Assembly (NCBI RefSeq): GCF_947500325.1
Contig: NZ_CANMRQ010000014.1
Coordinates: 1 to 64,000, forward strand
Direction of reading: 5' to 3'
DNA length: 64,000 bases
Source: an uncultured Lacinutrix sp.
GTDB taxonomy: Bacteria > Bacteroidota > Bacteroidia > Flavobacteriales > Flavobacteriaceae
How positions within the stretch are numbered: the stretch's first letter is position 1; every line of letters begins with the position of its first letter. The translations under genes and the position numbers were made by a program. The notes under the pieces were generated by a model, which was not told where the DNA came from, did no database searches, and saw only the letters and a program-made list of their open reading frames with translations. Shown here one piece after another: positions 50,274 to 61,049 of this stretch.

Positions 50274-51383
50274 ATGATAAAGCTTCACGATAAATATTTT
50301 AAACCGTTTATATCTGAACAAGAAATAAGCGATACTGTTTCTAGAATGGCAGCAGAGGTTGCTAACGATTTAGGTGATGAAGTGCCTGTTTTTATTGGTA
50401 TTTTGAATGGTTCATTTATGTTTGTAAGTGATTTTGTAAAAAAATACCCCAAACCTTGCGAGGTCACATTTATAAAATTAGCATCTTATGAAGGGGTTAA
50501 GTCGACTGAAGATATCCAGAGACTTATTGGATTAACACAAGATTTAACAAATAGAACTGTTGTAATTCTTGAAGATATAATAGATTCTGGAAACACACTG
50601 CATGAAGTACACCGTATCTTTAAAAATGAAAATGTAAAGCAACTACTTATTGCTACATTGTTTTACAAACCAAATGCATATAAAAAAGACTTTAAATTAC
50701 ATTATGTTGGTATAGAGATTCCTAATAAATTCATAGTTGGTTATGGATTAGATTATGATGGTCTAGGAAGAGATTTACCAGCAGTTTATCAAATAAAAAC
50801 AACACAACACATGACTAATTTAGTATTATTTGGTCCTCCAGGAGCAGGTAAAGGCACGCAAGCTAATTTTTTAAAAGAAAAGTATAATTTGGTACACATT
50901 TCTACTGGAGATGTTTTTCGTTTTAATATGAAAAATGGCACAGCATTGGGGAATTTAGCACAGTCTTATATAGATAAAGGCGACTTAGTTCCAGATCAAG
51001 TTACAATAGATATGCTAGAAGCTGAAGTTGAAAAAAATGCAGATGCTCAAGGTTTTATATTTGATGGGTTTCCAAGAAATGAATTTCAAGCCAAAGCTTT
51101 AGATAGAATTATGGATAGTAAAGATTCTAAAGTTAATGCTATGATCGCTTTAGAAGTAGAAGATGAGGTTTTGGTTAAGCGATTGTTAGAACGTGGTAAA
51201 ACTAGTGGTCGTAAAGATGATTCTGATGAAAATATTATTAGAAACAGAATCGCAGTATATTATGACGAAACAGCTATTTTAAAAGACTATTATTCTGGAC
51301 AAGATAAATATTTTGGAGTTGATGGCTTTGGAAGTATAGAAGATATTACTGGACGTTTATGTGAGGTAATAGATAAATTATAA
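50274..51383 (+). CDS. adk: hypoxanthine phosphoribosyltransferase / adenylate kinase fusion
   Basis: One open frame of 369 aa encodes two complete purine enzymes. Residues 1-178 are HPRT: GSFMFVSDF, then the PRPP-binding VVILEDIIDSGNT (96-108). Residues 180-369 are adenylate kinase: P-loop GPPGAGKGT (187-195), STGDVFRFN, FIFDGFPRN and a short LID (RGKTSGRKDDSDENIIRNR) without zinc Cys. A Met at residue 180 (ATG 50811) is exactly where Adk would normally start, so separate translation from an internal start is possible. No stop codon lies between the two parts. Confidence 0.93.
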   Translation: MIKLHDKYFKPFISEQEISDTVSRMAAEVANDLGDEVPVFIGILNGSFMFVSDFVKKYPKPCEVTFIKLASYEGVKSTEDIQRLIGLTQDLTNRTVVILEDIIDSGNTLHEVHRIFKNENVKQLLIATLFYKPNAYKKDFKLHYVGIEIPNKFIVGYGLDYDGLGRDLPAVYQIKTTQHMTNLVLFGPPGAGKGTQANFLKEKYNLVHISTGDVFRFNMKNGTALGNLAQSYIDKGDLVPDQVTIDMLEAEVEKNADAQGFIFDGFPRNEFQAKALDRIMDSKDSKVNAMIALEVEDEVLVKRLLERGKTSGRKDDSDENIIRNRIAVYYDETAILKDYYSGQDKYFGVDGFGSIEDITGRLCEVIDKL

Positions 51384-53570: not shown

Positions 53571-54218
53571 TTAATGTGATGTTTCTATTTTTTTAAATAA
53601 TAAATAAGAATATACTATAGGTATTATGGTTAGAATGCTAGTAATGACTATAAAGAGTATTAAGTTTAATTTTTTGTCTAATAATAAACTTAATACTATT
53701 ATCAATAACCCTCCAAAAAACCAATATTTTCCAGCCATATTATGTGTTCTTTTCCATACAGTTTCATTTTCTAAAGCCCAAGGCGTTCTAATACCAATAA
53801 AGTAGTTAGGTTTAAATGTTTTCATGTAATTTCCAAGAACAACATACAGTAAACCTATTAATAATATTATAATATTAGGGTTTGTAAATGTTTGAGATTT
53901 TGAACTATATAATATAAATAATGCTAGAATCGACATGAAAAGAGTTAACAAAAACTTAATGTTGTAAAACTTATTACTCTTAGCATCTATTTTCTTTTTA
54001 GGGTCTATTTTTGGAATTACAGTAAGCAGTACATAGATTAATACAGGTAAAAGAAAAGGAATTAATAATAGCGTATTTTTTGATGACCAACCATCAATCT
54101 CTCCACTAGCATTCCAATGTGTAGGTACAGTTTCTGGCAAAGCATTCCATATGTAGGCTAAATAAATAAAAGGAATGAGAACAATAAGTAATAACGGAAG
54201 TTCTTTTTTTAAAGACAT
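53571..54218 (-). CDS. SdpI-like membrane protein (DUF1648/SdpI)
   Basis: At 215 aa it has about six helices. Residues 8-50 form the DUF1648 part (LPETVPTHWNASGEIDGW), and NYFIGIRTPWALENETVWKRTHNMAGK (around 135-161) is the SdpI signature. In Bacillus subtilis SdpI gives immunity to the SdpC toxin and acts as a signal receptor that sequesters SdpR. No SdpC homologue is seen here. It starts 4 bases after the ArsR-type regulator gene, giving the classic sdpRI arrangement. Confidence 0.85.
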   Translation of the reverse strand: MSLKKELPLLLIVLIPFIYLAYIWNALPETVPTHWNASGEIDGWSSKNTLLLIPFLLPVLIYVLLTVIPKIDPKKKIDAKSNKFYNIKFLLTLFMSILALFILYSSKSQTFTNPNIIILLIGLLYVVLGNYMKTFKPNYFIGIRTPWALENETVWKRTHNMAGKYWFFGGLLIIVLSLLLDKKLNLILFIVITSILTIIPIVYSYLLFKKIETSH

Positions 54219-54222
54219 AATT

Positions 54223-54477
54223 TTATTTTTTTAAAGTTAGAATCCATTGTAACACATCTTCTAAAATAGTAGTGTTAATGGAGTATTCAACAAATTGACC
54301 TTTCTTTTCGCTATTAACTAAATCTGCCCTTTTTAATATGTCTAAATGATGAGAAATACTTGGTTTAGAAATATTAAAAGCATTTGCTATTTCTCCAGCA
54401 GTAAGATCTTTTTCTTTAAGCAATTCCAAAATCTGCCGTCTAGTATCATCATTTAATGCTTTAAATAAAAGGTTCAT
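54223..54477 (-). CDS. SdpR-like ArsR-family autorepressor
   Basis: 84-aa winged helix-turn-helix protein: LFKALNDDTRRQILELLKEKDLTAGEIANAFNISKPSISHHLDILKRADLV, with a beta wing (KKGQFVEYSINTT). No metal-binding Cys, as in SdpR. Its promoter carries a symmetrical site (54496-54521) 18 bases upstream. I infer autorepression relieved when the partner SdpI-like protein recruits it to the membrane, by analogy with the B. subtilis system. Confidence 0.88.
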   Translation of the reverse strand: MNLLFKALNDDTRRQILELLKEKDLTAGEIANAFNISKPSISHHLDILKRADLVNSEKKGQFVEYSINTTILEDVLQWILTLKK

Positions 54478-54573: not shown

Positions 54574-54603
54574 TCCGTTTAAATAAATCATTTTACCATT
54601 CAT
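54574..54603 (+). promoter_or_regulatory. LytTR-type direct repeat upstream of the DUF6624/two-component operon
   Basis: Two direct repeats, TCCGTTTAA (54574-54582) and ACCATTCAT (54595-54603), are separated by 12 bases (ataaatcatttt). The first follows the general LytTR half-site [TA][AC][CA]GTTN[AG][TG] except for the last base; the second has ATT for GTT. The repeat ends 33 bases before the -7-like TATATTTAC (54637-54645). The copy at 57819-57848 has the same spacer and distance. Confidence 0.78.
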
Positions 54604-54636
54604 CATAATTTAGACTTTAAGACTTTAAATAGGATG

Positions 54637-54645
54637 TATATTTAC
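54637..54645 (+). promoter_or_regulatory. -7-like element TATATTTAC
   Basis: One base from TAnnTTTG. No recognisable -33 element, consistent with activator dependence. The same nonamer stands at the same distance from the second LytTR site (57882-57890). Confidence 0.6.
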
Positions 54646-54696
54646 AGTATCAATTAAAAAACAAACAGTATAACAATCATCAAAAAACAAACAGTT

Positions 54697-54756
54697 ATGT
54701 TTAATTTAGTAAAAGTAGTCGTGGAAGTATTAATTGCAGTATTAACGACTATGTAA
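54697..54756 (+). CDS. possible 19-residue hydrophobic peptide
   Basis: Short open frame MFNLVKVVVEVLIAVLTTM ending in TAA, about 50 bases downstream of the predicted LytTR-controlled promoter. The peptide is amphipathic to hydrophobic with one Lys and one Glu, a possible single membrane helix or signal peptide. Upstream is a 14-base direct repeat (aaaaaacaaacagt at 54656-54669 and 54682-54695) ending just before the ATG. The coding bases also form an inverted repeat (AGTCGT/ACGACT), so an RNA function is an alternative. Not proven to be translated. Confidence 0.4.
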   Translation: MFNLVKVVVEVLIAVLTTM

Positions 54757-54866
54757 GATTTAATCAATCAATTTATACTAACCAACCAAAATAACCAAAA
54801 CAAAATTTACTTACCAATATACCTTGTATTCCCATAGTAATACAAAACAAAAAACTTTAAGGATCT

Positions 54867-55883
54867 ATGAGAAAGATACTAGTATTGTCGTTATTATTAA
54901 TATTTGCTTCTTGTAAGAATGAAAAGAAAGAAATAGTTATAAAAGAACCAACAGCAGAGCAAAAAGCTAAATATGCCGAATTAAAAAACGAAGCTTGGAA
55001 TCTTTATGAAAAGAAAGATTTCTTGAAATCGGCACAGAAATATTCTGAAGCTTTTAGGGCTACTGAAGGAAAAAGTAATACTACGGATAGATATAATGCT
55101 GCTTGTTCATGGGCTTTAGCAAAAGAAATTGACTCTTCATTTGTTCAATTATATAGAATAGCAAACAAAGGAGCTTATTCTAATTATGGTCATATAACGA
55201 CAGACGTAGATTTGTCAAATTTGCATTCAGATAAGCGATGGAATAAATTACTAGACGTAGTTAAATTAAATAAAGAAAAGGCTGAAGCAAATTTTGATAA
55301 ACCATTGGTAGCTATTTTAGATACTATCTATCAAGACGATCAAGGTTTAAGAAGAGAAATAAAAGATGTAGAAGAAAAATATGGTAGAGATTCTGATGAA
55401 ATGAAAGCGCATTGGAAAACCATAGCAGAGAAAGATTCAATTAATCTTATTAAAATTCAAAAAATATTAGATGAACGTGGTTGGCTAGGTCAAGATAAAA
55501 TTGGAGGTAGAGGGAATTCTACATTGTTTTTAGTAATTCAACATTCTCCACTAGAAGTACAGGAAAAGTATTTGCCTATGATGCGTGAAGCTGTAAAGAA
55601 AAATAATGCTAGAGCGAGCAGTCTAGCCTTACTGGAAGATAGGATAGCAATGAGAAAAGGTGAAAAACAAATTTATGGTAGTCAAATTATGAGAGATCAA
55701 GAAACAGGAAAATATTACGTGTCTCCGTTAATTGATCCTGAAAACGTAGATAAAAGAAGAGCAGAAGTTGGACTTGCACCTTTAACCGACTATGTAAGCA
55801 TGTGGAATATTACTTGGGATGTTGAAAAACATAAAGCAATGGCAGAAAAGTTAGAATCTGAAAAAAATAAAAACATGCAATAA
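54867..55883 (+). CDS. DUF6624 lipoprotein with TPR-like N-terminal region
   Basis: At 338 aa it has a lipoprotein signal peptide with Cys16 (LIFASCKNE). Residues 30-100 look like a TPR-type helical hairpin (AWNLYEKKDFLKSAQKYSEAF; YNAACSWALAKEIDSSF). Residues 180-300 carry the DUF6624 signature: ILDERGWLGQDKIGGRGN, FLVIQHSPLEVQEKYLP, SLALLEDRIAMRKGEKQIYGSQ. The activity of the domain is unknown. It leads the operon of the two-component system (82 bases to the kinase start) and lies 215 bases behind the LytTR-type promoter. Confidence 0.75.
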   Translation: MRKILVLSLLLIFASCKNEKKEIVIKEPTAEQKAKYAELKNEAWNLYEKKDFLKSAQKYSEAFRATEGKSNTTDRYNAACSWALAKEIDSSFVQLYRIANKGAYSNYGHITTDVDLSNLHSDKRWNKLLDVVKLNKEKAEANFDKPLVAILDTIYQDDQGLRREIKDVEEKYGRDSDEMKAHWKTIAEKDSINLIKIQKILDERGWLGQDKIGGRGNSTLFLVIQHSPLEVQEKYLPMMREAVKKNNARASSLALLEDRIAMRKGEKQIYGSQIMRDQETGKYYVSPLIDPENVDKRRAEVGLAPLTDYVSMWNITWDVEKHKAMAEKLESEKNKNMQ

Positions 55884-55965
55884 AAATTATAAGTGCATTA
55901 GAAATTGTATTAGATATAGAAGTGCGATATTTTAGTTTAAATTGCACAAGTTTAAAGTACAACAA

Positions 55966-57027
55966 ATGAAATTATCTCTAAATAAATATTATCTCATTTT
56001 TAGTTTAATAGGTTGGGTGTTTCTTTTTTTTATTACACTAGCACTTAGAAAAATGATTGGTGTAGAAACCTCACCAGAGCGTGTTAAATATTTAATTGCA
56101 GAATCTGTTGCTTGTGGGATATTAGCTTACTTAACAACATTTATAGTCTCTCTACATATAGACTATAAAATAGATTTTAATAATATTAAGCGCCTAGATA
56201 TCTATAAGGTAATAGGATTATTTATTATTATACAATTAATATATTCATGGTTACTCTGGCCATTATTAGATATGGTTGATTTCTGGGGAGGTAGTAGAGG
56301 TAAGTCTGGAGATATGACCTTTATACCGCTTTTATATAATGCTATATATTTTGCTACACTATATATTATATGGCTTTTTGTGTTTTTAACTATTAAAATG
56401 TATCATCATTTAAACGTTGTGAAAGTAAAACAACTCCAGTTAGAAAGTAACTTAAAAGAATCTCAATTAAATACTTTAAAAGGCCAAATTAATCCACACT
56501 TTATGTTTAATACTTTAAATAATATTCGTGGTTTAATGCTTGAAGATGTAAGTAAGGCTAGAAATATGTTAACAAATTTATCTGAAACATTACGATATTC
56601 ACTTACCAAAAGTGACGTAGATTCGATAGCTTTAGAAGATGAATTAGAAATGGTAGAGAATTATATAGCGATTTCTAAAATTCAATTAGAAGAACGTTTA
56701 CAATTTCAAACCGAAATAGATCCAAATACTTTAAGTAAACAAATACCTCCAATGATTATACAAATGTTAATTGAAAATGCAATTAAGCATGGTATTTCTA
56801 ATCTAAAAACGGGAGGTATATTAAGTTTAAATACACATATTAACAATAATGTTTTAGAAATAGTAGTAGCAAATCCTGGGCAATTAAAAGAAACAAAAAA
56901 TACGACTAGATTAGGTTTGAAAAATATTAAACGACGTCTTGAATTACTTTATGGCGATAGTGCTATATTTAATTTAAAAGAAGTAGATGCTAGAGTAATT
57001 GCAACTGTTAAAATTCCATTAGCGTAA
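55966..57027 (+). CDS. LytS/YehU-type sensor histidine kinase
   Basis: From ATG 55966 it has 353 aa; the TTG at 55942 only adds eight residues. Four transmembrane helices (about 8-26, 45-64, 81-101, 120-145) are followed by a coiled coil. The His_kinase domain has phospho-acceptor H178 in QINPHFMFNTLNNIRG. The ATP-binding domain has N-box IQMLIENAIKHGI and G-box RLGLKNIKRRLELLYG. There is no periplasmic sensor domain, so the signal is probably sensed within the membrane. Its stop overlaps the response-regulator ATG by one base (TAATG). Confidence 0.92.
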   Translation: MKLSLNKYYLIFSLIGWVFLFFITLALRKMIGVETSPERVKYLIAESVACGILAYLTTFIVSLHIDYKIDFNNIKRLDIYKVIGLFIIIQLIYSWLLWPLLDMVDFWGGSRGKSGDMTFIPLLYNAIYFATLYIIWLFVFLTIKMYHHLNVVKVKQLQLESNLKESQLNTLKGQINPHFMFNTLNNIRGLMLEDVSKARNMLTNLSETLRYSLTKSDVDSIALEDELEMVENYIAISKIQLEERLQFQTEIDPNTLSKQIPPMIIQMLIENAIKHGISNLKTGGILSLNTHINNNVLEIVVANPGQLKETKNTTRLGLKNIKRRLELLYGDSAIFNLKEVDARVIATVKIPLA

Positions 57028-57752
57028 TGAAGTTAAAAGCTGTCATAGTAGAGGATTCACGTTTAGCCAGAAATGAGTTGAAAGAACTTATGAAAGTACA
57101 TCCAGAGATTGAACTTATTGGTGAAGCAGAAAATGTAGATGAAGGTTATAAACTTATTAATAAATCTAATCCAGATTTGTTGTTTCTAGATATAAATATG
57201 CCCGAAAAAGATGGTTTTGAATTATTAGAAATGTTAGATGAGGTGCCAACAACCATTTTTACTACTGCTTTTGATGAATACGCTATTAAATCTTTTGAGT
57301 ATAATGCTTTTGATTATTTGTTAAAACCAATTAACCAAAAACGATTTTCGGCTACAATAAAAAAAGTTTTTGAAAATGCAACTGCTGCACCTTCTAATAT
57401 TTCTAATAAAGATGTTTTAGCATTAGATAAAAAAATCTTTATTAAAGATGGAGAAAAATGTTGGTTAGTAAAAATTCAAGATATTTCTCTTTTTGAAATA
57501 GTAGGTAATTATACACGTGTGTATTTTGAAGAAAATCAACCACTTATATATAAGTCATTAGTGCAAATAGAAGAGAAATTACCCCAAGATGTTTTTTTTA
57601 GAGCTAATAGACAGCAAATAATAAATATTAACCATGTAAATAAAGTAGTATCATGGTTTAACGGTAAGTTAAAAATAGAAATGCATTCTGGTGATGAAAT
57701 CGAAATTTCAAGAAGGCAATCTTATATTTTTAAAGACCAATTAAGTTTCTAA
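57027..57752 (+). CDS. LytTR-family response regulator
   Basis: At 241 aa, the receiver domain is at 1-120 with phospho-acceptor D55 (LLFLDINMPEKDG), the acidic pair E9/D10, the conserved Thr in TIFTTAF and Lys in DYLLKPI. The LytTR DNA-binding domain is at about 138-240 (IFIKDGEKCWLVKIQDISLFEIVGNYTRVYF; FFRANRQQIININHV). It binds direct repeats rather than palindromes; two matching sites flank the operon, one upstream of its own operon and one upstream of the next. Translationally coupled to the kinase. Confidence 0.94.
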   Translation: MKLKAVIVEDSRLARNELKELMKVHPEIELIGEAENVDEGYKLINKSNPDLLFLDINMPEKDGFELLEMLDEVPTTIFTTAFDEYAIKSFEYNAFDYLLKPINQKRFSATIKKVFENATAAPSNISNKDVLALDKKIFIKDGEKCWLVKIQDISLFEIVGNYTRVYFEENQPLIYKSLVQIEEKLPQDVFFRANRQQIININHVNKVVSWFNGKLKIEMHSGDEIEISRRQSYIFKDQLSF

Positions 57753-57818
57753 TTTAGAAATTATAAGTATTATTATTTCTATTAGTAAATAAAAATTTCC
57801 AAGTTAAAATTATTTTAT

Positions 57819-57848
57819 TCCGTTTAGATAAATCATTTTGCCATTCGT
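57819..57848 (+). promoter_or_regulatory. LytTR-type direct repeat upstream of the DinB/DoxX operon
   Basis: TCCGTTTAG (57819-57827), which matches the LytTR half-site pattern at every position, then the 12-base spacer ataaatcatttt, then GCCATTCGT (57840-57848). It is 33 bases before TATATTTAC (57882-57890), exactly as at the first site. Confidence 0.8.
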
Positions 57849-57881
57849 CATATTTTTTATGTTCAATGTCTGCCTCTAATA

Positions 57882-57890
57882 TATATTTAC
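57882..57890 (+). promoter_or_regulatory. -7-like element TATATTTAC
   Basis: Same nonamer and same distance from the LytTR repeat as at 54637-54645. It would give a leader of about 40 bases to ATG 57936. Confidence 0.6.
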
Positions 57891-57935: not shown

Positions 57936-59069
57936 ATGAAAACAATTAAATGTATTATTCTTACATGCCTGCTAAGTATTGCAACACATGCTCAAAAAGA
58001 AGTTAAAGAAATCTCAAGGGATTGGACCTCTTTTAGTCAATTTTTAGATATAGAATCTAAGACAAAAAAGAAATTTAAAGTTATTGCTTCTGTAAAAGTT
58101 GACACTGAAGATAAACAAGCTTGGGCAGGAGTTTGGGCAAGGGTAGACAATAAAGAAGAAACCGGGTTTTTTGATAATATGGGAGATAGACCAGTGAAAA
58201 TTAATGAATGGAAGTCTTATACTGTAGAAGGTGTTATAGATGAAAATTCTAAACGATTAAATTTTGGAGGGTTATGTTTAATGAATGGCAAATTCTATTT
58301 TGATAATTATAAATTATTTATAGAAAACGATAAAGGAGTGTTAGAAGAAGTTCCTGTAGATAATTTCAGTTTTGAAACTTCATTTTCTAATAATGTAATT
58401 CCAAAATGGAATCAAGGTATTTCTAAAGGTAAAACTGTAAAAGTTAAAGAGTATAAGGTAACCACTACAGCAGATGCAGTAGAAGGTAATTCTGCATTGT
58501 TAATAGAAGGAAGTGGTATTAAGCCAACCTCAGATGGTACTATAGGAAATGTGGAAGGCGCTTCGCCTCAAATTGCAGCGATGATCTCTATGTTAGAAGA
58601 TTTAAAAGAGCGAGTAGAAAGAAGAGTAAAGAATATGTCTCAATATGAGATAGATCATTTACATGATGAAAAAGCAAATAGAATTGGGGCTTTAATTATG
58701 CATTTAGCTGCAGCTGAAAAATTTTATCAAGTATTTACTTTTGAAGGAAGAATGTTTAATGAAGAAGAGAAAAAGAAATGGGATGTAGCTTTAAATTTAG
58801 ATCAAGGCGGAAGAGATGAGTTTAAAGGTCATGATGTACAGTATTACTTAGATATTTATAATGAAGTAAGAGCAAAAACGATAGAAGAGTTAAAAAAGAG
58901 AGATGATAAATGGTTTCAAGAAATACAGCCAGCTTATGGTTGGAGTAATCATTATTGTTGGTTCCATGTTATGGAACATCAATCTAGTCATTTAGGACAA
59001 ATTTTATTTTTAGCAAAAAGAATTCCACCAGAGGCAGAGTTGAAACTACCAGAAAACATTAAAGATTAA
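57936..59069 (+). CDS. secreted protein: beta-rich domain plus DinB-like domain
   Basis: At 377 aa it has a signal peptide (1-19). Residues 22-195 form a beta-rich, probably jelly-roll domain (VKEISRDWTSFSQ, FKVIASVKV, GVWARVDN, GFFDNMGDRPV, FYFDNYKLFIE). Residues 210-366 are a DinB-superfamily four-helix domain with candidate metal ligands H256 (ALIMHLAA) and H344/H348/H352 (HVMEHQSSHLGQ). Extracytoplasmic DinB domains are unusual. The N-terminal half is paralogous to the next gene's, the C-terminal half to the gene at 61163. First gene behind a LytTR site; next gene 15 bases on. Confidence 0.8.
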   Translation: MKTIKCIILTCLLSIATHAQKEVKEISRDWTSFSQFLDIESKTKKKFKVIASVKVDTEDKQAWAGVWARVDNKEETGFFDNMGDRPVKINEWKSYTVEGVIDENSKRLNFGGLCLMNGKFYFDNYKLFIENDKGVLEEVPVDNFSFETSFSNNVIPKWNQGISKGKTVKVKEYKVTTTADAVEGNSALLIEGSGIKPTSDGTIGNVEGASPQIAAMISMLEDLKERVERRVKNMSQYEIDHLHDEKANRIGALIMHLAAAEKFYQVFTFEGRMFNEEEKKKWDVALNLDQGGRDEFKGHDVQYYLDIYNEVRAKTIEELKKRDDKWFQEIQPAYGWSNHYCWFHVMEHQSSHLGQILFLAKRIPPEAELKLPENIKD

Positions 59070-59084
59070 TATAATATTATTAAA

Positions 59085-61049
59085 ATGAAGAAATTATATT
59101 TCATACTATTTGCGATTCTAATTAGCTTTTCTCTATCTGGACAGACAGTAAAAGAAATTTCTAGAGATTGGGTTTCGTTTAGCCAAAAAATAGAGGTTAA
59201 AACAGACTCTATAAAAAAGTTTAAAGTCATTGCATCTGTAAAAGTAGAAGGAATTGATGAAAAGTCTAGAGCAGGAATTTGGGCAAGAGTAGATAATAAA
59301 CCAGAGCAAGGAAGAGGTTTTTTTGATAATATGGGAAATAGACCCATAACTGCTAATAAATGGGAGTCATATACAATTGTAGGTAGAATAGATTCTAAAT
59401 CTGAAGAGATAAATTTTGGAGCTATTTGCTATAATAATGGCAAGTTTTACTTTGATAAATTTGAACTCTATATAGAAGATGATAATGGAGAATATCAACC
59501 TGTAAAATTAGATAACGCTAGTTTTGAAAATAAAGTAGTAAATAGTGCTATTCCTAATTGGAGTAATGGTATAGGTCGCGCCGAACCTACAAGAATAAGA
59601 GAATTTACTTTCAATGCGAGTGAAGATGCAATAGATGGGGCATATGCTATAGTAATAGAAGGTAGTGGGATTGATAATAATACCGGTACTATTAAACCGT
59701 TTTATCCAAATATAGGAATATACATAGCTATACTATTTCTGTTAATATTTGTATTAACATTAATAACTAATATCTCATCAACTGAAGAGGATAAGTGGTC
59801 TAAGCTAGGGAGTTTTGGCTTTAGGTTTTCATTTATTTACTTTGGGTTAATTATTTTCTTTCAAAATAATGGGGCTTATCCATTTTTTGATTTTCTAGCT
59901 AAAAAACCACTGGAGTTAATGCAAAAATTCGCACCTTGGTTTGGAGAGCATGTTCTCGGAATTCCTTTTAAAATAGCTACAGGACCTAATGGTAGTGGAG
60001 ATACAACCTTTGATTATCTAGTTGTACTTATAATTTTTATTACAGCAGTATTAGGTGCTTTAATTTGGTCAGTTATAGATAGAAAGCGAACAAGTTACAA
60101 GAAACTATATTATTGGCTAACAACAGCAATGCGTTACTATGTTGGTTTAATGCTTATTAGTTATGGCTTAGTAAAAGTTATCCAACTACAATTTCCAGAA
60201 CCTAGTTTTTACAGATTATTACAACCTTATGGTGAATCTTCTCCTATGGGATTAGCTTGGACTTTTTTAGGTTTTTCAGAAGGTTATAATATGTTTATGG
60301 GTATTGCAGAAGTGTTAGCTGGTTTGTTATTGTTTAGAAGAACTCAAACATTAGGAGCGATCATCACTTTAATGACTGCTATGAATGTGATGGCAGTTAA
60401 TTACTTTTTCGATGTGCCTGTTAAGATATTATCTACTCATTTAGTGTTAATGACGTTGTTCTTGTTGTCTCGAGATATTAAGAAAGTAATGCAGTTTTTA
60501 TTAACCAATAATCCTGTTGAAAGATTAACAGTAATAAAGCGTCCCAAGCTAAAAAAATGGCTAGATGTTAGTCTTAAAGTGTTGAAGGGTTTAGTTATAG
60601 CCTATGCCTTAGGATATGGTTTCTACAATGTTCTAGATATGAATAAGCAATATAATCCAGATGTGCCTAAACCAGAATTATATGGTGTTTATAAGGTGAA
60701 AAATTATGTCATTAATAATGATACCATAACCAATTATAAAAATGATAGACTTTGGAAAACTATTATGTTTGAAAGAACAGGTTCTGTACAAATTGAAACA
60801 ATGAATGAGAAAAGAATTTCTTATAAAGTTGAAATAGATTCAATAACTAAAAAAATGAAATTTTCTAAATCTGGTGATCAATCAGATGCTTTTGATTTTA
60901 ATTATACAAAGACAGGTGCTAATTTAGATTTTAACTTTATCACAGAGAATGATACAATTTCTGGAAAGACCAAACGTATGAATGATGATGCTCTTTTATT
61001 AATCAATAGAGGTTTTAATTGGATTAGTGAACGTCCTTATAACAGATAA
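59085..61049 (+). CDS. beta-rich domain fused to DoxX-like membrane domain
   Basis: At 654 aa it has a signal peptide (1-19) and the same beta-rich domain as the preceding protein (about 21-197; VKEISRDWVSFSQ, GIWARVDNK, GFFDNMGNRPI, FYFDKFELYIE). Residues 207-480 hold about eight helices, including a DoxX-like part from about 345 (AMRYYVGLMLISYGLVKVIQLQFPEPS ... MGIAEVLAGLLLFRRTQTLGAII). After another helix (about 505-525) a 120-residue extracytoplasmic beta domain ends the protein. Possible redox or lipid-linked role, unproven. Co-transcribed with the DinB protein. Confidence 0.75.
   Translation: MKKLYFILFAILISFSLSGQTVKEISRDWVSFSQKIEVKTDSIKKFKVIASVKVEGIDEKSRAGIWARVDNKPEQGRGFFDNMGNRPITANKWESYTIVGRIDSKSEEINFGAICYNNGKFYFDKFELYIEDDNGEYQPVKLDNASFENKVVNSAIPNWSNGIGRAEPTRIREFTFNASEDAIDGAYAIVIEGSGIDNNTGTIKPFYPNIGIYIAILFLLIFVLTLITNISSTEEDKWSKLGSFGFRFSFIYFGLIIFFQNNGAYPFFDFLAKKPLELMQKFAPWFGEHVLGIPFKIATGPNGSGDTTFDYLVVLIIFITAVLGALIWSVIDRKRTSYKKLYYWLTTAMRYYVGLMLISYGLVKVIQLQFPEPSFYRLLQPYGESSPMGLAWTFLGFSEGYNMFMGIAEVLAGLLLFRRTQTLGAIITLMTAMNVMAVNYFFDVPVKILSTHLVLMTLFLLSRDIKKVMQFLLTNNPVERLTVIKRPKLKKWLDVSLKVLKGLVIAYALGYGFYNVLDMNKQYNPDVPKPELYGVYKVKNYVINNDTITNYKNDRLWKTIMFERTGSVQIETMNEKRISYKVEIDSITKKMKFSKSGDQSDAFDFNYTKTGANLDFNFITENDTISGKTKRMNDDALLLINRGFNWISERPYNR

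Follow-up and report, generated by a model that had tools for sequence, protein, structure and literature searches.

The DNA considered here is a 64,000-nt stretch (the window; positions 1 to 64,000 of the forward strand of contig NZ_CANMRQ010000014.1, assembly GCF_947500325.1) from an uncultured Lacinutrix sp. of the Flavobacteriaceae, in which two consecutive + strand operons, the first encoding a sensor kinase and a LytTR-type response regulator, are each preceded by a candidate LytTR operator. Operator 1 (TCCGTTTAAATAAATCATTTTACCATTCAT, 54574..54603, +), located by pattern scan, consists of two 9-bp direct repeats (TCCGTTTAA / ACCATTCAT) separated by 12 bp. It is followed directly 3' of repeat 2 by CATAATTT (54604..54611, +), delimited from an alignment profile, and 33 bp after the operator by TATATTTA (54637..54644, +). 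Operator 2 (TCCGTTTAGATAAATCATTTTGCCATTCGT, 57819..57848, +), with the repeats TCCGTTTAG / GCCATTCGT and an identical 12-bp spacer, is likewise followed by CATATTTT (57849..57856, +; same profile) and, after 33 bp, by the TATATTTA of the second promoter (57882..57889, +). We take TATATTTA to be a -7 element of the Bacteroidetes type (consensus TAnnTTTR).

The first open reading frame (ORF) of the kinase operon begins 52 nt past the first TATATTTA and encodes a 19-amino-acid (aa) micropeptide, MFNLVKVVVEVLIAVLTTM (54697..54756, +), recognized as a conserved ORF and by a codon test. It is followed by a DUF6624 protein (PF20329; 54867..55883, +) with a lipoprotein-like start, as judged by eye, and a weak TPR-end match below cut-off. 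The sensor histidine kinase (55966..57027, +; start taken at ATG 55966) matches PF06580 with 89 bits, above the Pfam cut-off, and is thereby of the LytS type; about four hydrophobic segments lie in its N-terminal part, and it combines several transmembrane (TM) segments with the lack of a large extracytoplasmic domain. The regulator (57027..57752, +) carries a receiver match (PF00072, 72.8 bits) and the LytTR DNA-binding domain (PF04397, 80.8 bits), both above the Pfam cut-offs, as expected of a LytTR-type response regulator. Operator 2 precedes three putative target genes, all on the + strand: a 377-aa protein with a C-terminal DinB/mycothiol-S-transferase-like domain (PF04978; 57936..59069), a 654-aa protein for which the Pfam scan gave no match (59085..61049), and a DinB/MST-family protein (PF04978, PF12867; 61163..61723, start taken at ATG 61163). 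Near their N-termini the 377-aa protein and the 654-aa protein (57936-61049) resemble each other over a stretch reading KEISRDW..FSQ.., noticed on visual inspection and reflected in overlapping tblastn matches.

An earlier, sequence-only reading of the window had pointed to the two 30-bp sites, to the spacer that they have in common and to TATATTTAC at a distance of 33 bases from each, all of which were found in the window as claimed, and the ORF and Pfam layout confirmed its placement of one site upstream of the operon of the LytTR regulator and of the other upstream of the next operon. Allowing up to 3 mismatches, the operator pattern has two matches in the window, operators 1 and 2, and none in 100 dinucleotide shuffles. 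TATATTTAC starts at 54637 and 57882, 33 bases past each operator; these are its only + strand copies in the window, and three further copies lie on the - strand. The 33-bp stretches between operator and TATATTTAC are otherwise diverged, with 16 of 33 positions identical, again in agreement with the earlier reading. In both operators the second repeat is directly followed by CATA, an element that, like the micropeptide gene, is present in the window and absent from the list drawn up in that reading. The spacers agree at 12 of 12 bases. Among relative loci with two sites (n = 23) the mean agreement is 6.3 and the largest 10, with none at 11 or 12, hinting at a recent copy or gene conversion in the window. 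The same 12 spacer bases also occur in one relative locus, L086.

Conservation of the promoter was further studied in loci (L numbers) found by scanning genome contigs with the kinase, the best 80 of at least 553 relatives being kept as kinase-orthologue loci. These 80 loci are mutually related, so that the counts below are not independent events, although they come from many genera. A homologue of the regulator lies downstream of the kinase in 80/80 loci, directly adjacent in all except L135, where it is about 1 kb away. The pattern CCRYTYR-N14-CCRYTYR gave 77 exact sites in the 80 loci, and in 68 of the 77 a TAnnTTTR starts exactly 33 bp past the 30-mer; other distances from 10 to 69 bp account for five cases in total (32 bp twice; 27, 34 and 69 bp once each). 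With one mismatch or fewer, 90 sites have TAnnTTTR at 33 bp, distributed over 67/80 loci (one site in 44 loci, two in 23) and all on the operon strand. The next commonest distances at this stringency are 35 and 54 bp, with 7 sites each, and the 54-bp group fits a 21-bp shift arising from tandem repeats. In seven loci (L092, L094, L095, L141, L143, L145 and L149) the pair is preceded, 21 bp upstream, by a third repeat.

A matrix built from 92 sites (the 90 plus the two of the window), applied at a threshold score of 13 or more, placed a promoter at most 4.5 kb upstream of the kinase in 78/80 loci, some of these sites being low-scoring and with the spacing off by a base. In the 92 aligned sites the CAT after repeat 2 is invariant and is followed by A in 94%, a feature outside the search pattern, and TT precedes the repeats; no TTTG-type or conserved -33 upstream element is evident in the base profile of the aligned sites. 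The site upstream of the regulator's own operon is thus conserved in orthologues (78/80 loci by matrix, and 19/20 genomes in the survey described below). Conservation upstream of orthologous genes was the test that the sequence-only reading had set for itself, and the repeats, the spacer length, the 33-bp distance and the -7 element do recur across many Flavobacteriaceae genera.

In the relatives, too, the first ORF past the promoter of the kinase operon encodes a hydrophobic peptide, of 17-24 residues, for example MINLVKVIIEFIIEVVFS in Winogradskyella (L087), MITLAKLLITLLISILV in Allomuricauda (L133) and MVTIVVYVLKSIVSLIMSFF in a Flavobacterium (L100), beside MFNLVKVVVEVLIAVLTTM in the window. 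Under a fixed rule (a length of 16-25 aa, an AVILMFC content of 58% or more, and ATG or GTG within 60 nt of the promoter) such a gene follows 61/78 kinase-proximal promoters and 0/28 distal ones, with a mean of 1.45/78 in shuffled leaders; widening the rule to 300 nt gave 63/78, 0/28 and 5.75/78, respectively. A slightly wider rule retrieved the gene after 67/78 promoters. Five of the 11 loci that lack it belong to Tenacibaculum or Polaribacter. In L101, L108, L131 and L140, and in L105 and L106, which have no recognized promoter, a short hydrophobic ORF lies nearer to the kinase. For the codon test, pairs with 18 or fewer differences were taken, 22 of 26 independent ones, from 53 loci picked by a regular expression demanding Lys 6. 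Changes at codon positions 1, 2 and 3 numbered 93, 21 and 126, and synonymous changes amounted to 114, where 500 random trials averaged 63 and never exceeded 81, which indicates purifying selection. Polar residues prevail at positions 3, 10 and 14, the conservation of Lys 6 being a consequence of the selection, and in L129 GTG replaces the ATG start with the frame kept. The micropeptide gene is thus almost certainly a genuine coding gene. NCBIfam, scanned with peptides of 20 aa or more, gave no match for three relatives of 20, 21 and 24 aa.

A short ORF standing first in an mRNA could also be a regulatory leader, acting through attenuation, translational coupling or ribosome stalling, with a functionless product. 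That it is the amino-acid sequence which is conserved, while third codon positions vary more freely and polar residues are kept at 3, 10 and 14, speaks against this, as does the fact that the downstream gene and its distance vary between loci. Nor does the window leader fold better than its shuffles (z -0.38) or match Rfam at E <= 1; one chance match elsewhere lies far below its own cut-off. We consider a mere leader rather unlikely.

The micropeptide could alternatively be a ligand or pheromone sensed by the neighbouring kinase, as in the Gram-positive LytTR peptide system AgrD/AgrC/AgrA. Its first place in the same operon, the LytTR regulator, the feedback layout and a kinase that has several TM segments but lacks a large extracytoplasmic domain would all suit such a role. 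Covariation was studied with Mantel tests on 65/81 loci with a peptide pick; three of the picks (L092, L123 and L134) are misregistered or wrong, and L122 has a truncated regulator. Plain correlations with peptide distance were 0.40 for the sensor region, 0.55 for the kinase core and 0.58 for the regulator (each p 0.001), the first of these counting in favour of a ligand. However, the corresponding partial correlations were 0.07 (p 0.07), 0.09 (p 0.07) and 0.26 (p 0.001): with regulator and kinase core held constant the association with the sensor region is gone, whereas that with the regulator remains, and the Agr-like covariation of a peptide with the sensor domain of its receptor was not found. 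Individual pairs show the same. L083 and L116 have peptides that are 94% and regulators that are 85% identical but sensor regions at 18%, which are still faintly alike by blastp without composition correction, and conversely L116 and L103 share 51% of the sensor region and 24% of the peptide. Moreover, no processing or export domain was detected by Pfam in the other genes of the window kinase operon. That the peptide follows the regulator better than the sensor region speaks against a dedicated ligand of the latter, a role that we regard as improbable; a sensing mode common to both sensor types, with the peptide as ligand, would nonetheless be compatible with these results. The sensor region is of a distant type in L103, L107 and L116, and in L103 and L107 a gene of 130 or 138 aa lies directly upstream of the distant-type kinase, an arrangement suggesting a swapped sensor cassette.

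Equally improbable is a role for the micropeptide as a small hydrophobic peptide that damages membranes, in the manner of type I toxins such as TisB and Ibs. Its size, hydrophobicity and narrow polar face appear similar to those of these families, but an invariable position at the head of a signalling operon would be unusual for them. A membrane-inserted peptide serving as an output, or as a local feedback element, and not as a dedicated kinase ligand, appears to account better for the data; the narrower assignment as a membrane-acting output is put forward tentatively, at somewhat less than an even chance. A bolder proposal, speculative and rather doubtful, is that the micropeptide is the first member of a so far undescribed family of membrane peptides under LytTR control. 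With the regulator it would make up the constant part of a signalling module in which sensor region and target operon can be exchanged, and it would feed back on the circuit in or across the membrane, as the Bacteroidetes counterpart of Gram-positive LytTR peptide circuits.

The distribution of the promoter beyond the orthologue loci was examined with R1, a sequence-only model of the 74-bp promoter built from 60 training sequences that include the two window sites. In the own genome the window sites are the only full-length matches (E 1.5e-12 for operator 1 and 6.7e-11 for operator 2), and the next match is partial, at 0.003. The repeat pair occurs there in nine exact copies, of which the two in the window alone have TAnnTTTR at 33 bp. 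A dispersed regulon was considered and rejected, both by R1, which finds only two full promoters in the genome, and by the repeat pattern itself, which in the own genome is scarcely commoner than its reversed control (73 vs 68 at one mismatch or fewer, 9 vs 6 exact). The regulon proposed in the sequence-only reading therefore amounts to two neighbouring promoters and not to a dispersed set.

Among 199 genomes (G numbers) representing 198 genera of the family, a clear kinase orthologue was present in 20; the limits used, E < 1e-70 for orthologues and 1e-4 for the promoter, were both chosen after the results, the kinase search showing a gap between 2.3e-71 and 8.6e-50. R1 gave matches in this sample at E <= 1e-4 in 19 cases and at E <= 0.01 in 48, the weaker ones mostly short and partial. 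A promoter accompanies the kinase in 19/20 genomes (18 at E <= 1e-4 and G312 at 3.1e-4), in each of the 19 at most 2.5 kb upstream and on the same strand, whereas only 1 of the 179 genomes without a clear orthologue (G390) has a promoter at E <= 1e-4. Class-wide, 8/395 genomes had a match at E <= 3e-4, the own genome and seven others, mostly partial. The full length of the model is matched twice, at 4.1e-5, in G538, a genome from a different family within the class (L224 and L229, identical in sequence). Homologues of window genes were not found by tblastn (1e-3) in the short flanks of nine loci, L208 and L222-L229. Kinase and promoter occur together, with a short hydrophobic ORF after the promoter, in G110, G134 and G187, three genomes from a different family within the order (L066, L063 and L067, respectively).

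The genome encodes 27 LytTR genes, and the repeats could in principle be bound by a different one of these regulators, the local two-component system being a target only. Yet the promoter goes with the kinase in 19/20 genomes, directly upstream of it, and elsewhere appears in 1/179 at E <= 1e-4, which leaves this alternative very improbable. At the other 26 LytTR genes (25 regions) the same architecture was not found, one direct repeat of 8/9 or better being suitably placed before TAnnTTTR (L171, unlike the window motif), and by judgement no short hydrophobic ORF of the micropeptide kind lies near them. One-mismatch repeat pairs with TAnnTTTR at 33 bp stand beside two other LytTR genes (G000:C2 at about 270735, +, L160:1374; G000:C1 at about 508268, -, L169:4851 on the reverse strand). 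The same scan also returned two sites at 30 bp, and neither of the two LytTR-adjacent pairs reached matrix score 9; they may be due to chance or to other LytTR regulators using the same geometry.

The second operon varies by species, with an S9-family peptidase gene in L073 and L133, whereas the window has the DinB/654-aa group. Of the 80 loci, 8 contain homologues of these window target genes. In L075 a homologue of target gene 1 follows the regulator after 21 nt, in L077 a target-gene homologue lies between promoter and kinase, and L074 and L088 have a target-gene homologue with a promoter of its own, at 33 and 34 bp, respectively. In L083, L098, L099 and L116 the homologue lies upstream and has no recognized promoter of its own. 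Homologues of the 654-aa protein stand beside the orthologous systems in L074, L077 and L088. There is thus moderate support for the DinB / 654-aa / DinB genes as predicted targets. That the second site is a recent functionless copy of the first, as a spacer identity beyond that of all 23 two-site relative loci and the support of only four of the eight relatives for the target operon might suggest, is the least probable alternative, because it has the repeats, CATA and 33-bp element that the family conserves and because the operon right behind it has homologues that, in some relatives, are linked to the system.

In combination, these results lead us to propose that the LytTR response regulator encoded at 57027-57752 occupies both 9-bp direct repeats, which are offset by 21 bp, in tandem, and that the bound regulator would contact RNA polymerase located at the -7 element (TAnnTTTR), which follows downstream at exactly 33 bp. 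It would thereby activate its own operon (micropeptide - DUF6624 protein - kinase - regulator) in a positive feedback, and also the adjacent DinB / 654-aa / DinB operon, the micropeptide being presumably inserted into the membrane. A LytTR operator with autoregulation is very probable from the sequence features. The explanation as a whole, regulator-driven activation of both operons together with a membrane-inserted micropeptide, we consider likely, and a small local regulon with positive autoregulation is the most likely arrangement.

Several observations weigh against this interpretation. By the matrix the promoter is absent from 2/80 loci (L105 and L106), and G463, one of the 20 genomes, has the kinase and no promoter at E <= 0.01. 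At this looser limit some R1 match is found in 48/199 genomes. The sensitivity of both the matrix and R1 is flattered, as they were trained on the window and on loci several of which recur among the 199 genomes. Under the slightly wider rule the micropeptide is missing after 11/78 promoters (L088, L101, L108, L115, L121, L125, L127, L128, L131, L140 and L147). Any other of the 27 LytTR regulators could bind the operators, activation rather than repression is suggested by the geometry of the sites, and binding, transcription starts and expression are predictions from sequence.

Outside the two operons, an ArsR-type regulator and an SdpI/DUF1648 membrane protein, presumably an SdpRI-like pair, adjoin operator 1 in the opposite direction (53571-54477, -). 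A single ORF at 50274-51383 (+) resembles, by eye, a hypoxanthine phosphoribosyltransferase fused to adenylate kinase.

The general LytTR layout is given in PMC4847170 as two repeats with 11-13-bp spacers, with an influence of the flanking DNA that fits the CATA element after repeat 2. The window sites fall within the direct-repeat layout of two 9-11-bp repeats and an 11-13-bp spacer. Table 3 of PMC6193735 lists LytTR operon promoters from several phyla, with repeats such as ACCACTTAC-12-ACCACTTGC. When its columns are summed, with TGN read as part of an extended -10, the distance from the repeats to the -10 is 32, 33 and 34 bp in 8, 9 and 3 of 20 rows. The statement of the sequence-only reading that LytTR domains bind 9-bp direct repeats at about 12-bp spacing agrees with most of these tabulated promoters. 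Since the layout is the same and 33 bp lies within the published 32-34 bp, the operator is of a known LytTR kind combined with a Bacteroidetes promoter, and the main novelty is the micropeptide. That the spacing agrees across phyla though the promoter elements differ would point to a common mode of contact with RNA polymerase.

The analysis yields a precise operator rule for a Bacteroidetes LytTR regulator (9-12-9, CATA, 33 bp, TAnnTTTR) and a conserved gene of 17-24 aa that heads a signalling operon in many Flavobacteriaceae and is easily missed by annotation. No earlier description of the rule or of the micropeptide was found in the literature searched, a scope outside which most subscription journals lie. 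One candidate functional hint was discarded: a kinase/LytTR pair of Flavobacterium johnsoniae is reported in PMC10197871 as mutated in all five coevolved lines, and the mutated codon positions given there do not fit the EDSRLAR start of the present regulator group.

The closest described relatives are the LytTR regulatory systems (LRS), of which HdrRM and BrsRM of Streptococcus mutans are examples; in the account of PMC6193735 their 9-bp direct repeats, of the type ACCACTTAT, are in most cases 12 bp apart and are followed by a -10 at 32-34 bp, and positive autoregulation is shown there for HdrR. An LRS as described in that account pairs its regulator with a membrane inhibitor and has no kinase, and the repeats of the S. 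mutans systems lie nearer to the promoter. The window system differs in its kinase/response-regulator pair, its Bacteroidetes -7 element, the lack of an evident conserved -33 element and the micropeptide gene; with the kinase present and adjacent, it falls outside the LRS definition. The LRS-like operons of Bacteroides, from the same phylum, likewise have direct repeats upstream of a TATCTTTG promoter, but the two rows devoted to them in PMC6193735 give 11-bp repeats, an 11-bp spacer and 34 bp to TATCTTTG, and the regulators, which carry TM segments, have different membrane partners. BtsS/BtsR and YpdA/YpdB of Escherichia coli (PMC5552118, PMC4847170) similarly combine a LytS-type kinase with a LytTR regulator, and YpdB binds two direct repeats; they differ in responding to pyruvate and switching on transporter genes, and the passages on them mention no cotranscribed micropeptide. 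The best NCBIfam match of the window regulator is BtsR, with 171 bits against a cut-off of 246. In Agr-type systems and the AgrA-driven phenol-soluble modulins, too, a LytTR regulator drives the gene of a tiny hydrophobic peptide. These systems are Gram-positive, and the window peptide does not track the sensor region.

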